From: Kribbella capetownensis
Lineage (GTDB): Bacteria > Actinomycetota > Actinomycetes > Propionibacteriales > Kribbellaceae
Length of the DNA: 64,000 nucleotides
Direction of reading: 5' to 3'
NCBI RefSeq assembly: GCF_004331485.1
Contig: NZ_SJKD01000006.1
Span: forward strand, 62,001-126,000
This document shows, one piece after another, positions 52,952 through 57,118 of this stretch (within the stretch, counting starts at the first letter, position 1; each line of letters begins with the position of its first letter). The notes under the pieces are model-generated. The model searched no databases. It was not told the DNA's origin and worked only from the letters and a program-made list of their open reading frames with translations. The translations under genes were made by a program, and so were the position numbers.

Positions 52952-53455
52952 TCAGCGGCGGACCATCCGGATCTCCATCAGGCCGAAGAACGGATCGTGC
53001 TTGCGGGCGCCGTCCTCGACGAAGTCGTTGCGCCGGTAGAACGACCGAGCCCGCTGGTTGTCCTCGAACACCCACAGGCTGGCCGGATCCTTGCCGATGG
53101 CAAGCTCCAGCAGCCGGGCGCCGAGCCCGGTCCCCCACCACTTCTGACGGGTGTAGATCGCCTGCAGCTCGAGCGGAGTCGGGGCGTCGTCGTCACGCCC
53201 GGGTCCGCCGGACGCGAAGCCCACCACCCGGTCCTCCACCGCGGCCGCCGGGTCCGGGTTCAGCGCGATCCAGCGCACCCATCCGTTCTCGGCCGCCGTC
53301 GTCCAGCGGTCGATCCGGCGGTCGATGTTGCTGGTCTGCTCGAGCAGTTGGTCGGCCGGGACAAGGTCGGCGTACGCCTCGCGCCAGCAGAGCAGGTGAC
53401 ACCAGGCGGCAGCCTCGGAGTCCTCGACGGCGGCGCGGCGGATGAGAGGTTGCAC
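52952..53455 (-). CDS. GNAT-family N-acetyltransferase
   Basis: 167 residues, GTG start directly after the stop of the MDR gene (no gap). The acetyl-CoA loop appears as IYTRQKWWGTGLGARLLELAI (R-x-x-G-x-G/A variant), preceded by the VVGFASGG strand and followed by LWVFEDNQRARSFYRRNDFV. The substrate is unknown; the abutting reading frames suggest cotranscription with the oxidoreductase. Confidence 0.87.
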   Translation of the reverse strand: MQPLIRRAAVEDSEAAAWCHLLCWREAYADLVPADQLLEQTSNIDRRIDRWTTAAENGWVRWIALNPDPAAAVEDRVVGFASGGPGRDDDAPTPLELQAIYTRQKWWGTGLGARLLELAIGKDPASLWVFEDNQRARSFYRRNDFVEDGARKHDPFFGLMEIRMVRR

Positions 53456-54424
53456 CTAGACAGTGAAGACGATCTTGCCGAAGACGTCACCTTCATTGAG
53501 CTTGGTGAAGCCCTTGCGGGCGTCGGCCAGCGGCAGGATCGAGTCGATGTGCGGCGAGATCCCGGCGTTCGCCATGAACTGGAGCAGCTCGGCCAGCTCG
53601 GTCCGGGTCCCCATCGTCGAGCCCTGGACCCTGAGCTGCAGGAAGAAGATCCGGTTCAGCTCGGCCGACTTCGGCGCCTGGCCGCTGGTCGCGCCGGAGA
53701 TCACCATCGTGCCGCCCTGCTTGAGCGACTTCAGCGAGTGCGACCAGGTCGCCTGCCCGACCGTCTCCATCACCGCGTCCACCCGCTCCGGCAGCCGTGC
53801 ACCGGACTCGAACGCGCCGTGGGCGCCGATCTCGAGCGCCTTGGCCCGCTTCCCCTCGTCCCGGCTGGTCGCCCAGACCCGGATCCCGGCCGCCCGCGCC
53901 AGCGTGATCAGCGCGGTCGCCACGCCGCCGCCGGCGCCCTGCACCAGCACGGTGTCGCCCGGCTTCAGGCCCGACTGCGTGAACAGCATCCGGTACGCCG
54001 TGAGCCACGCGGTCGGCAGGCAGGCAGCCTGCTCGAAGCTCAGCCCGGCCGGCTTCGGTACGACGTTCCGAGCCGGTACGGCGACCTTCTCGGCGAGCGT
54101 GCCCTGGTAGCGCTCACTCAGCAGCGACCGCTTCGGGTCAAGCGTCTCGTCGCCCTTCCACGCCGGATCGGAGATGACCGCGTGCACGACGACCTCGTTG
54201 CCGTCCGGGTCGATCCCGGCCGCGTCGCAGCCGAGGATCATCGGCAGGTTCTGCTCTGCCAGCCCGACGCCCTTGAGCGACCACAGATCGTGGTGGTTGA
54301 GCGCGGTCGCCCGGACGTCGATCGTCACCCACCCCTCGGGCACCGTCGGGTCAGGGCACTCCCCCACCTCCAGGGCGGCGATCGGGTCGTCGGCGTTGAA
54401 CTTGGCGGTGTAGGCAGCAAGCAT
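53456..54424 (-). CDS. MDR-family zinc-independent alcohol dehydrogenase/quinone reductase-like oxidoreductase
   Basis: 322 residues from the ATG at 54424 with AGGGTGG upstream. GroES-like N-terminal half (LNHHDLWSLKG, MILGCDAAG) and Rossmann half (GDTVLVQGAGGGVATALITLARAAG). NHHDLW in place of the catalytic Cys region and the absence of the structural four-Cys lobe point to a zinc-free quinone-reductase-like member. NADPH is likely; the substrate is unknown. It abuts the GNAT gene and is 22 bases downstream of merR on the same strand. Confidence 0.88.
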   Translation of the reverse strand: MLAAYTAKFNADDPIAALEVGECPDPTVPEGWVTIDVRATALNHHDLWSLKGVGLAEQNLPMILGCDAAGIDPDGNEVVVHAVISDPAWKGDETLDPKRSLLSERYQGTLAEKVAVPARNVVPKPAGLSFEQAACLPTAWLTAYRMLFTQSGLKPGDTVLVQGAGGGVATALITLARAAGIRVWATSRDEGKRAKALEIGAHGAFESGARLPERVDAVMETVGQATWSHSLKSLKQGGTMVISGATSGQAPKSAELNRIFFLQLRVQGSTMGTRTELAELLQFMANAGISPHIDSILPLADARKGFTKLNEGDVFGKIVFTV

Positions 54425-54446: not shown

Positions 54447-54812
54447 TCAGTCGGCGTCAGTTACCGAATTCACGACCGGGGCGGAGAGAACGCCGTCGAG
54501 CAGGCGACGGGATTCCTCGAGGGCGGTGATCGAGGCGGTGATCCGGTCGCGCTCCTGGTGCAACTGGTCGATGAGCACCTCGCATCTCGGCTCCAGCTTG
54601 GCCGTGACACACGGCAACACCTGCGAGATCGTCGCCGTCGACAACCCGGCTGCGAGCAGGGTCCGGATCCTGGCCACCACGTCGACGTCGCTCTCGGCGT
54701 ACTCCCGATACCCACTCGCCAGCCGCTCCGGCGTCAGCAGTCCCTGGTCCTCGTAGTACCGGAGCAACCGCTCGCTGACCCCGGTCCGCGCCACCATCTC
54801 GCCCATCCGCAC
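54447..54812 (-). CDS. MerR-family transcriptional regulator
   Basis: 121 residues, GTG start with GGAGG ten bases upstream. Residues 1-70 are the MerR headpiece: MGEMVARTGVSERLLRYYEDQGLLTPERLASGYREY, then DVDVVARIRTLLAAGLSTATISQVLPCV. The coiled dimer helix (LIDQLHQERDRITASITALEESRRLLDGVL) follows and the effector tail is short, with Cys in LPCV and EPRCEVL as possible sensors. The MerR-type promoter at 54835-54864 lies just upstream, and a near copy lies before the hydrolase at 56309. Confidence 0.92.
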   Translation of the reverse strand: MRMGEMVARTGVSERLLRYYEDQGLLTPERLASGYREYAESDVDVVARIRTLLAAGLSTATISQVLPCVTAKLEPRCEVLIDQLHQERDRITASITALEESRRLLDGVLSAPVVNSVTDAD

Positions 54813-54834
54813 CGCGCCGCCACCTCCACGACTC

Positions 54835-54864
54835 GACCCTCACATGCGTGTCGGAGTTTAACCT
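54835..54864 (+). promoter_or_regulatory. MerR-type promoter/operator, copy 1
   Basis: CTCACATGCGTGTCGGAG (54839-54856) lies between a weak -35 (TCGACC) and a -10-like TTAACC with 19 bases between the hexamers, the long spacer expected at MerR-activated promoters. It serves the plus-strand secreted-protein gene and overlaps the merR promoter region. Confidence 0.65.
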
Positions 54865-54915
54865 GTCCCCGGATCGGCAATAAGGGCCATGACCGTAATC
54901 CCCTGAGGAGATCCG

Positions 54916-56268
54916 ATGCTACGCGCGCTGATGGTCGCCGGCCTGACCGCCGTCCTGCTGACCGGACAGACCACGACCGCCCCGGCCATGCCGGCTGAGC
55001 CGGCAGAGCCGACCGCACAAGTCACCGGCGCCTACCTGCAGATCACAGCCGACGGTGTCGCCACCGAGCCGGGCTTCGAGGGCGCGGCGCATGCGCACGC
55101 AGCGTTGGCGGCGATGTACGACGTCACCGGCGACCCGCAGCAACGCCAGACCGCCGACGAACTGCTCAACTACATCCTGGATCGAAAGCCGGGCCAGATG
55201 AGCACGGATCTCGCCCTGCAGTACCTGCGAAGCCCTTACCTCCAGAGCGATCCGCGGTTGGGCGCCAACCTGGAGACCTTCGTGACCGCGCTCCTCGACC
55301 TGTACGCCACTCAGCCCGACAAGGTGCTGCGGACCGGCGACATCCGTACGTTGACGGGACGCGCTGAGCTGCTGGTCGACTACGCCGAGTACGTCGAGCA
55401 CCGGCCCGGCGACCTGTCCCGGATCCAGTCCGCCGACGCCGCGGCCCGGGGGATGCTGGACCGCGTCGCGGCGCTGCAGTACACCAGCGAAGAGGCCGTC
55501 TCGTCGTTCCACAACGACCGGTATGTCGGGGCCTTCCCGCACTTCGTCGCCGGTGACGACGGCAACATGGGCACCTGGGACGTCGAGCACTGGGCGCCGT
55601 CGATGCTCTCACTCGACCAGTACGCCGCCGTCCGGGCACTCGCCACCGGCTACGGCCGGTTCCACACCGCCAGCTACAACAACGCCGCCGCCTCCGGGAC
55701 GCGGCACCTGCTCGGCACGACCCAGATCGACCCGGACCTGATCTACGCCGGCGCTCCCGCGGGCTTCCCGCTGGACGGCGCGAAGTACGTGATCGGCGAG
55801 GAGACCGGCGAGCAGCCGTACCTGATCACCTACGGCTGGTCCCCGAACGCGATCGCCCAGCTGGGTACGGCGTTGAAGGCGGTCCGGGACAACCGGGTCA
55901 AGGTGCCGCAGTCGGCCGCCTGGCTGGCGTCGTACTGGCGTGGCACTCCCCCGCGCAGCGTGCTCGCTCCGGGACAGTTCTGGCACGGGCTGGACTCGAA
56001 GATCGCGTACTCACACCGGTTCATCGAGGCCACCCAGCTCGCGGTCCCCGCCGACTTCCCCTGGCTCGACCTGGACCGCACCACGTTCCCCGGCACGGGT
56101 GACGACGCCATCCGCCGAGGCGGCTGGTACGACGGCTCCGGCCGCGGCACCATGTCAGCGGTCTACTCCCGCCTGGCCATGACCGGCTACGTCCAGTCCG
56201 GCGGCCACGACATCCCCATGCTCAACCAAGCCGCCCAGTGGTGGACCCGCATGATCGTCCGCAGCTGA
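54916..56268 (+). CDS. Secreted helical protein of unknown function
   Basis: 450 residues, ATG with GAGGAG upstream. A signal peptide ends near residue 25 (TAPAMPA). The mature chain is mostly amphipathic helices in pairs (AAHAHAALAAMYDVTGDPQQRQTADELLNYIL, then ANLETFVTALLDLYATQPDKVL), like an alpha/alpha-barrel glycosidase, but no catalytic motif can be named. Acidic or aromatic clusters (GDDGNMGTWDVEHWAPSML, RRGGWYDGSGRGTMSAVYSRLA) may line a groove. It lies behind MerR-box copy 1 and 40 bases before the hydrolase behind copy 2, so all three genes probably act together. Confidence 0.7.
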   Translation: MLRALMVAGLTAVLLTGQTTTAPAMPAEPAEPTAQVTGAYLQITADGVATEPGFEGAAHAHAALAAMYDVTGDPQQRQTADELLNYILDRKPGQMSTDLALQYLRSPYLQSDPRLGANLETFVTALLDLYATQPDKVLRTGDIRTLTGRAELLVDYAEYVEHRPGDLSRIQSADAAARGMLDRVAALQYTSEEAVSSFHNDRYVGAFPHFVAGDDGNMGTWDVEHWAPSMLSLDQYAAVRALATGYGRFHTASYNNAAASGTRHLLGTTQIDPDLIYAGAPAGFPLDGAKYVIGEETGEQPYLITYGWSPNAIAQLGTALKAVRDNRVKVPQSAAWLASYWRGTPPRSVLAPGQFWHGLDSKIAYSHRFIEATQLAVPADFPWLDLDRTTFPGTGDDAIRRGGWYDGSGRGTMSAVYSRLAMTGYVQSGGHDIPMLNQAAQWWTRMIVRS

Positions 56269-56269
56269 C

Positions 56270-56301
56270 TTGACTCTCACACCGATGTCGGAGCTTAGCC
56301 T
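56270..56301 (+). promoter_or_regulatory. MerR-type promoter/operator, copy 2
   Basis: TTGACT (-35), a 19-base spacer with CTCACACCGATGTCGGAG, then TTAGCC. The 18-bp core differs from copy 1 only in the 4-base centre. The -10 ends 8 bases before the hydrolase ATG, so the mRNA should be leaderless. Confidence 0.7.
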
Positions 56302-56308
56302 CCGGGGC

Positions 56309-57118
56309 ATGACCACAGTCCTACTTGCCCACGGTGCGGGCGGCGGTATCGAGGCCAACTACGCCGGCCTCATCGAGGACCTGTCCGCCGACCACACTGT
56401 CATCGGCGTGGATCTCCCCGGAACCGGCAGTGCACCCCGGCGCTCCGTTCCGCTCACCCTTGACGGCCTCGCCGACGAACTCGTCGCGGCTGCCGAGGGA
56501 CATGACCGGTTCGCGATCGTCGGCTATTCGCTGGGTACCGCGATCGCGATCCGTGCCGCCACCCGGCATCCGGATCGCGTGAGCGGGCTCGTCCTGACCG
56601 CACCCTTCGCTCGGCCCAACCCGCGCATGACGATGCTGGTCGAACTCTGGCGTGAGCTGCTGTCCGGCGATCCGGAACAGCTCGCGGCGTTCGTCCATCT
56701 GGTCGGCATCGGCACACCGACGCTGGATCGCCTCGGTGCGGACGAGTTGGCCGGGTCGCTGAGCGCCACGGTCGTCCCGCCGGGGACGCCGGACCACCTC
56801 GACCTGATCGACGTCGTCGACGTACGCGCGGATCTGGCGAGGATCGCCGTCCGCACGCTGGTGATCTCGACGACCCAGGACAACCTGGTGACACCGCACC
56901 ACCACCGGGAGGTTGCCGACGGCGTCCATCAGGCGGAGTACGTCGAACTGGCCTCCGGGCATCTGCCGTTCGTGGAAGCCCCGCAGCGCTGGATCGGCCT
57001 GGTGCGGGGCTTCCTCGACGATCAGGACCGCGCGACTCCGTCGGATTCGGCGGATGCTGCGACCGCGGTGGCGACGGCTGGGGCGACGCGGGGGTCGAAC
57101 GGAGACGGGATGATGTAG
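56309..57118 (+). CDS. Alpha/beta hydrolase under probable MerR control
   Basis: 269 residues from the ATG at 56309. TTVLLAHGAGGGIEANYAGL is the oxyanion region, nucleophile in IVGYSLGTAIA, acid in LVISTTQDNLVTP and His in LASGHLPFVEAP, a full triad. Homologous length ends near residue 240; the last 30 or so residues (ATPSDSADAATAVATAGATRG) are encoded on the antisense of the malic enzyme 3' end, a 97-base overlap, and look like run-on. It is probably activated by MerR. Confidence 0.87.
   Translation: MTTVLLAHGAGGGIEANYAGLIEDLSADHTVIGVDLPGTGSAPRRSVPLTLDGLADELVAAAEGHDRFAIVGYSLGTAIAIRAATRHPDRVSGLVLTAPFARPNPRMTMLVELWRELLSGDPEQLAAFVHLVGIGTPTLDRLGADELAGSLSATVVPPGTPDHLDLIDVVDVRADLARIAVRTLVISTTQDNLVTPHHHREVADGVHQAEYVELASGHLPFVEAPQRWIGLVRGFLDDQDRATPSDSADAATAVATAGATRGSNGDGMM

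Follow-up and report, generated by a model that had tools for sequence, protein, structure and literature searches.

The locus examined here, from Kribbella capetownensis, raises the question of whether one MerR-type regulator, a promoter element that occurs twice, and the genes behind its two copies form a small regulon, and if so how far that regulon extends. The window, by which we mean the whole stretch of 64,000 nucleotides that was analyzed, contains a merR gene, a gene for a predicted secreted protein (SEC) and a gene for an alpha/beta hydrolase (HYD), all lying between an MDR dehydrogenase gene and a convergent malic enzyme gene. The features are listed in Table 1. G000 is the genome that holds the window, G001 onward are the comparison genomes, and L numbers designate extracted loci. 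The explanation that we regard as rather more probable than not is a small MerR regulon, predicted from sequence, in which merR and HYD form the core, SEC has been brought in, and an SDR gene and an LLM gene are controlled in trans.

Table 1. Position, strand and description of the features discussed in the text (window coordinates)
Feature	Position	Strand	Description
GNAT acetyltransferase	52952..53455	-	neighbour, not unit member
MDR (zinc-binding/quinone-type dehydrogenase)	53456..54424	-	neighbour, not unit member
merR	54447..54812	-	121-aa MerR regulator, GTG start, Cys68 and Cys77
Promoter/operator copy 1	54833..54864	+	predicted; -35 TCGACC 54833-54838, operator CTCACATGCGTGTCGGAG 54839-54856, -10 TAACCT 54859-54864
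SEC	54916..56268	+	450-aa predicted secreted protein, signal-like N-terminus (judged by eye), mostly helical
Promoter/operator copy 2	56270..56301	+	predicted; -35 TTGACT 56270-56275, operator CTCACACCGATGTCGGAG 56276-56293, -10 TAGCCT 56296-56301
HYD	56309..57118	+	269-aa alpha/beta hydrolase, Pfam Abhydrolase_1 (PF00561) 2.4e-24

The two promoter copies and their operator class

A preliminary description of the window had reported the motif CTCACA-N4-TGTCGGAG before SEC and again before HYD, with merR divergent from the first site, and both observations are borne out exactly. The two operators are the sole exact matches, both on the forward strand, in the window and in the 31-contig draft genome (8,831,527 bases, 8.83 Mb); two further matches carry one mismatch, and one of these is the promoter of the LLM gene discussed below. 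Many unrelated copies had been named as an outcome that would speak against a regulon, and since the genome search returned only the two window copies as exact matches, it does not refute one. With up to three mismatches allowed, the window holds 8 matches against a mean of 8.57 in shuffled sequences, so that the case depends on the exact matches. The 35 bp around site 2 (from 56267) and site 1 (from 54830) are identical at 27 of 35 positions, and the next best placement of this stretch on either strand of the window reaches 21 of 35.

With TTGACT and TCGACC as the -35 elements and TANNNT as the -10 element, the spacer is 20 bp in both copies; the 19-base spacer described earlier is obtained only with TTAGCC taken as the -10. 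Copy 1, situated between the divergent merR and SEC genes, has a weak -35 together with intact half-sites and -10, and is kept in the sister genome G020 as TCGACTCTCACATGCGTGTCGGAG. Copy 2 starts immediately past the SEC stop codon and runs into HYD, the mRNA of which is probably leaderless, because its ATG lies 39 nt from the start of the -35. The copy 2 element also precedes the orthologous hydrolase in G033 and G030, with the same spacing. Both copies are thus read, from sequence, as predicted MerR-type promoters.

A TTGAC...ACA-N4-TGT element matching at least 9 of 11 positions is found within 170 bp of the gene for 43 of 49 MerR rows from related genomes, equivalent to 41 of 47 genes, two having been entered twice via locus edges. 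As a control, random stretches of 170 bp were drawn from these loci, and 41 of 980 reach this score; the control stretches may still include real sites. The six rows with no such operator are the broken merR of G001, the MerR genes of G042, G044, G047 and G055, and one of those in G043. Its presence at 41 of 47 genes marks the 18-mer as one version of a general MerR operator and not as a locus-specific element. The fuller pattern TTGACTCT(G/C)ACA-N4-TGT(G/C)(A/G)G is rare, with 24 matches at no more than one mismatch (15 exact) in 58 genomes, in which the reversed pattern gives 0. At 21 of the 24 pattern sites a start codon lies 38-39 nt from the start of the -35, the exceptions being two G057 sites, at 36 and 49 nt, and the SEC site of G020, which lacks a start there; this constant distance suggests leaderless mRNAs. 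The operator scans reached 110 to 300 bp upstream only.

The hydrolase, the secreted protein and the variable slot

HYD contains the candidate triad residues Ser74 (GYSLG), Asp191 and His218, which are invariant in an alignment of 6, and its orthologues are 78% (G033) and 77% (G030) identical with dN/dS values of 0.18 and 0.20, respectively. In these two genomes merR is directly divergent from a leaderless hydrolase gene, and one perfect site, TTGACTCTGACACCAATGTCGGAG, with a perfect -35, serves both. The final ~30 codons of HYD run antisense to the 3′ end of the malic enzyme gene. The hydrolase enters that gene at an identical position in G000, G030 and G033, which points to a single origin. 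In the window, the overlap with the convergent malic enzyme gene covers 57022-57118 (97 bases).

Across the class, hydrolase matches at E ≤ 1e-35 occur in at least 29 of 394 genomes, the window's included; up to 44, 6, 4, 53 or 45 candidates per genome were scored in the protein searches, so the counts given here for HYD, SEC, SDR and LLM genes are lower bounds and their absences provisional. Seven loci from other families were selected, five for having the closest hydrolase (57-62% identical) and two (L162 and L163) for their MerR (hydrolase 41-44%), and all seven contain a MerR 60-64% identical to that of the window, divergent from an operator of this class, and a hydrolase 41-62% identical to HYD. 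The half-site is TGTCGGAG exactly in two of them and TGTGAG in five. Of 28 class-wide hydrolase loci (L140-L167), 10, including L162 and L163, have the operator directly before the hydrolase, and in the five closest-hydrolase loci it sits before the upstream gene; no such operator was found directly upstream in the other 13, which counts against the explanation we prefer. As judged from these comparisons, the merR-hydrolase link through copy 2 is the conserved connection, and an old one. At locus L173 an intact MFS transporter gene (PF07690, 4.9e-42) comes first behind the operator and the hydrolase second. At L169-L172, also from other families, what separates the operator from the hydrolase is an MFS gene that is frameshifted, broken or largely gone, and MerR and hydrolase are open.

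SEC has no Pfam or NCBIfam match, and a PDB sequence search gave nothing below E 0.34. Its structure was modeled from the single sequence (pLDDT 39.4) and from an eight-row alignment (pLDDT 49.8, pTM 0.55). A Foldseek search with the model returned no match at E ≤ 0.001, and VIA-align of the low-confidence model (pLDDT 49.8) gave Z scores of 8.5-11.4 to complement fragments, GH76 and epimerases alike; as several unrelated helical toroids are matched equally, SEC is given no family name. At least 7 of the 37 genus genomes contain it, as do G039, in two frames, at least 2 of 394 class genomes with the window's counted, and three Nonomuraea species; dN/dS is 0.15 against G020 and 0.28 against G017. 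The homologues away from merR (G012, G013, G016, G039 and the three Nonomuraea loci) show no operator, the best score being 7 of 11. A plausible promoter of SEC's own is present in G012, G013, G016 and G017 (TGGTCA, 17 bp, TTTGAT or TTGTAT). The block with this native -10 is missing in G000, G020 and G001, leaving the MerR site as the only recognizable promoter of SEC in G000 and G020. SEC accordingly reads, across the loci compared, as a late recruit to the merR-hydrolase unit. The ATGACCGTAATCCCCTGA stretch before SEC was considered as a remnant of a hydrolase start and rejected; it is the normal SEC leader, present also in G012, G013 and G016.

The slot between MDR and malic enzyme holds merR-SEC-HYD in G000, merR-SEC in G020 and G017, a broken merR with SEC in G001, merR-HYD in G030 and G033, and SEC alone in G012, G013 and G016. 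In 28 genus genomes merR, SEC and HYD were all not found between MDR and malic enzyme, some of these slots holding other inserts; in this survey the malic enzyme of G021 lies outside the extracted stretch and that of G035 is inverted and further off. Four outgroup loci have malic enzyme after MDR, without merR, SEC or HYD. All 37 genus genomes have MDR itself (overall, 55 of 58 do), and GNAT adjoins it in every one of the 37 genus loci whether merR is present or not; merR occurs in 6 of the 37 (G000, G020, G017, G030 and G033, plus the broken gene of G001). MDR and GNAT are therefore core neighbors and not members of the unit. The regulon proposed in the preliminary description stands, on sequence grounds, in its central part of one MerR, two promoter copies and two predicted targets, with an orthologous merR beside the same operator and hydrolase elsewhere; the tentative inclusion of MDR and GNAT has to be dropped.

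Several smaller features of the slot were observed. In G029, G015 and G007 (L105, L107 and L109) the slot is occupied by other genes, amounting to 5.6-5.9 kb, which marks the position as a general insertion slot in the genus. A stretch of ~190 bases that carries long inverted repeats, possibly a small mobile element, lies between merR and MDR in G020 (L080 4973-5161). In the window, the 3′ end of merR overlaps the stretch GTCAGTTACCGAATTCAC (54456-54473), probably the promoter region of MDR itself: of the 31 genus genomes without merR, 17 have it, with at most 4 mismatches of 18, equally far upstream of MDR. A merR tail in G012, G013 and G016 was likewise rejected, a GTCAGTTACCGA-type stretch being equally distant from MDR in 17 of the 31 merR-less genomes.

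The junctions in G017 and G001 (CTGATCAGG) match the remainder expected from deletion of copy 2 and the hydrolase at a shared GA. Two histories fit: the promoter may have been duplicated as SEC joined a merR-hydrolase unit, or the hydrolase may have been inserted behind SEC together with its promoter. We lean toward a G000-like ancestor with later losses, but the mosaic locus tree does not decide between them. This tree is rough, the ABC genes by the slot looking recombined in some genomes (e.g., 71-81% identity where MDR has 93%), and gains and losses were for that reason not counted on it.

Sites before SDR and LLM genes and rival explanations

Two exact pattern sites lie far from the locus in G000. 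One precedes an SDR gene (C11, PF00106) and the other an LLM oxidoreductase gene (C27, PF00296), and no MerR gene was found within ~1.5 kb of either (3 kb around). The exact operator precedes the SDR gene in G000, G020, G017 and G001 and the LLM gene in G000, G020 and G017. Among the genus genomes with the SDR gene (at least 24), a TTGACTCT-type site stands before it in 4 of 4 with merR (that of G001 broken) and 0 of 20 others; for the LLM gene (at least 19 genomes) the corresponding counts are 3 of 4, the exception being G033, and 0 of 15. An exact orphan site is present in 4 of the 6 genomes with merR (one broken) and 0 of the 31 without it (Fisher p 2.3e-4, ignoring kinship); the four genomes are close in the locus tree, so that the co-occurrence may be a single event. 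Counting against targets in trans, G033 has merR and the LLM gene with no site before the latter, the SDR site of G001 persists despite the broken merR, and the half-site of the trans sites is TGTCAG or TGTGAG, not TGTCGGAG, and could be bound by other paralogues.

Related arrangements occur elsewhere. A TTGACCTT(C/G)ACA-type site precedes the SDR gene in G006, G034, G035 and G036, with its own MerR adjoining in all except G034, which is without the merR of the window; there the related TTGACCTTGACA-type site has no MerR found adjoining, which indicates that such a gene can be under the trans control of a different MerR. At least eight merR-less congeners (L201, L202, L205 and L207-L211) have another MerR-like element upstream of the SDR gene, TTGACCTTGACC... 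followed by a GGGCAAGG-like part. From the differing elements, regulation of this gene seems to have switched more than once, suggesting a regulator swap. G057, from another family, has class sites before hydrolase, SDR, LLM-like and pyridoxamine-oxidase-like genes and also before a 6PGDH-like gene adjoining its own 57%-identical MerR, the LLM-like, pyridoxamine-oxidase-like and 6PGDH-like genes being named from sequence alone. In G042, G044, G047 and G055, a MerR 62-66% identical is without a site of its own, and one site each is found before an LLM-type gene, an identity that is Pfam-backed for G047 only. The regulon is probably larger than first thought, with two unlinked oxidoreductase genes as predicted members.

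Other explanations divide this evidence differently. The regulon could be local, with MerR acting on HYD and SEC only and the orphan SDR and LLM sites answering to another MerR paralogue. The differing half-sites, the 24 MerR-like matches in G000, the MerR adjoining the SDR gene in G006, G035, G036 and G049, and the orphan site of G034 are all as this would predict; yet exact class sites are missing from 30 of 31 merR-less genus genomes, the one exception (G003) being beside its own 55%-identical MerR, and the closest other MerR of G000 (50%) faces a TTGAACTT-type site, so we judge a purely local regulon unlikely. It is doubtful, though worth serious consideration, that site 1 serves merR autoregulation only or is a relic, with SEC outside MerR control. 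The -35 of site 1 is weak in G000 and likewise in G020 and G017, the site by the broken merR of G001 has decayed, and SEC homologues away from merR do without the operator; against this, site 1 has kept its half-sites and its -10, and the loss of the native SEC -10 in G000 and G020 leaves it the sole recognized promoter.

We consider it very improbable that the two copies are mere recombination scars of the slot with no regulatory meaning, even though the slot varies among the 37 genus genomes (merR-SEC-HYD, merR-SEC, merR-HYD, SEC alone, none or other inserts) and the G017 and G001 junctions resemble precise excision of copy 2 and the hydrolase. G030 and G033 retain copy 2 at its distance from the hydrolase, the operator class is kept in the class-wide loci, and merR, SEC and HYD are all under purifying selection. 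The small MerR regulon with targets both at the locus and in trans remains our preferred reading.

The regulator, the proposed mechanism and known systems

The merR product has an N-terminal MerR winged-helix domain (PF13411, MerR_1, 5.8e-18; PF00376, 7.7e-13; both over cut-off) and is without a ligand-binding domain past the dimerization helix. Its orthologues in four congeners are 98, 83-84, 83-84 and 73-74% identical; dN/dS is 0.07-0.14 against three of these and 0.07-0.20 over all merR comparisons. It scores 39-44 bits against the metal-sensor NCBIfam equivalogs (CueR, ZntR, CadR-PbrR and MerR), whose cut-offs are 147-168, and 33.5 bits against the SoxR equivalog (cut-off 116.9). SoxR carries a four-Cys iron-sulfur site; the whole protein here has two cysteines. 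Of 45 MerR relatives, all have Cys68 and 33 have Cys77, and Cys77 aligns with a Cys of the 4ua1 regulator, which we take to be a Bacillus MerR. Given the short protein, scores far under the metal-sensor and SoxR cut-offs, and Cys68 and Cys77, a thiol-reactive or drug-like signal is a reasonable guess. In G001 (L091 3534-3751) merR is broken by an internal deletion and lies in two frames; the adjoining operator has decayed, and the SDR trans site is kept.

MerR, CueR, ZntR, SoxR, BmrR and TipA are MerR-family activators of promoters with overlong spacers, and untwisting of such promoters is the mechanism of the family. The system described here shares with them the MerR HTH, a divergent gene, an operator within a long -35/-10 spacer and few targets. 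It differs in its cysteines, which are Cys68 and Cys77 only, with none in a C-terminal metal loop, in lacking a large effector domain, and in targets that are leaderless and in part probably in trans. BmrR-Bmr is a pair of a MerR regulator and an MFS pump. The MerR of the relative L173 is similarly divergent from an MFS pump gene, with the hydrolase behind it; in contrast to BmrR-Bmr, the pump is broken or largely gone in four relatives and absent at the Kribbella locus, and a drug-binding domain of the BmrR type is lacking. These genomes also contain other small actinobacterial MerR units, which have the same operator architecture and a mostly leaderless start, but their -35-proximal half is mostly TTGAACCT or TTGACCTT, and their targets are polysaccharide deacetylase, SDR, 6PGDH-like and MFS-like genes.

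By analogy with the family, a MerR dimer on the 20-bp spacer would sense a signal and untwist the promoter, which RNA polymerase could then use. Copy 2 would drive HYD as a leaderless mRNA. SEC, the own promoter of which has lost its -10, would be placed under MerR control by the copy beside merR standing in, and the SDR (C11) and LLM (C27) genes are probably trans targets of this MerR as well. Binding and activation, like a role in detoxification, are what we infer from the sites and gene types. The inducer may be a small molecule, either drug-like or reactive, that the two cysteines might sense. The gene types, namely hydrolase, SDR, LLM oxidoreductase and, in relatives, the MFS pump, agree with a drug or stress response. 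The broader proposal, that a two-cysteine MerR heads a conserved, undescribed actinobacterial detoxification regulon (hydrolase, SDR, LLM and MFS pump), leaderless, with 38-39 nt spacing and partly in trans, to which SEC was newly added when the promoter was duplicated and SEC lost the one it had, is put forward tentatively, at somewhat short of even confidence. Titles and abstract openings among the literature matches listed, subscription papers aside, contain no description of this regulon; the kind of system is already known, and the regulon itself appears to be new.

The loci appear to display stepwise gain of a regulon member, from the merR-hydrolase pair (G030 and G033), through SEC with its promoter kept (G017), to SEC with its -10 gone (G000 and G020). 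The proposal predicts a compact, co-regulated set of detoxification genes that is directly testable, and the fixed operator-to-start distance should make further members easy to find. Among the 24 MerR-like matches of G000, the closest paralogue shares about 50% identity, and the site that it faces is of the TTGAACTT type. This second MerR unit (G000:C27:649816-649845, L194) has a leaderless polysaccharide-deacetylase-like gene divergent from its MerR, and similar units occur in several congeners.
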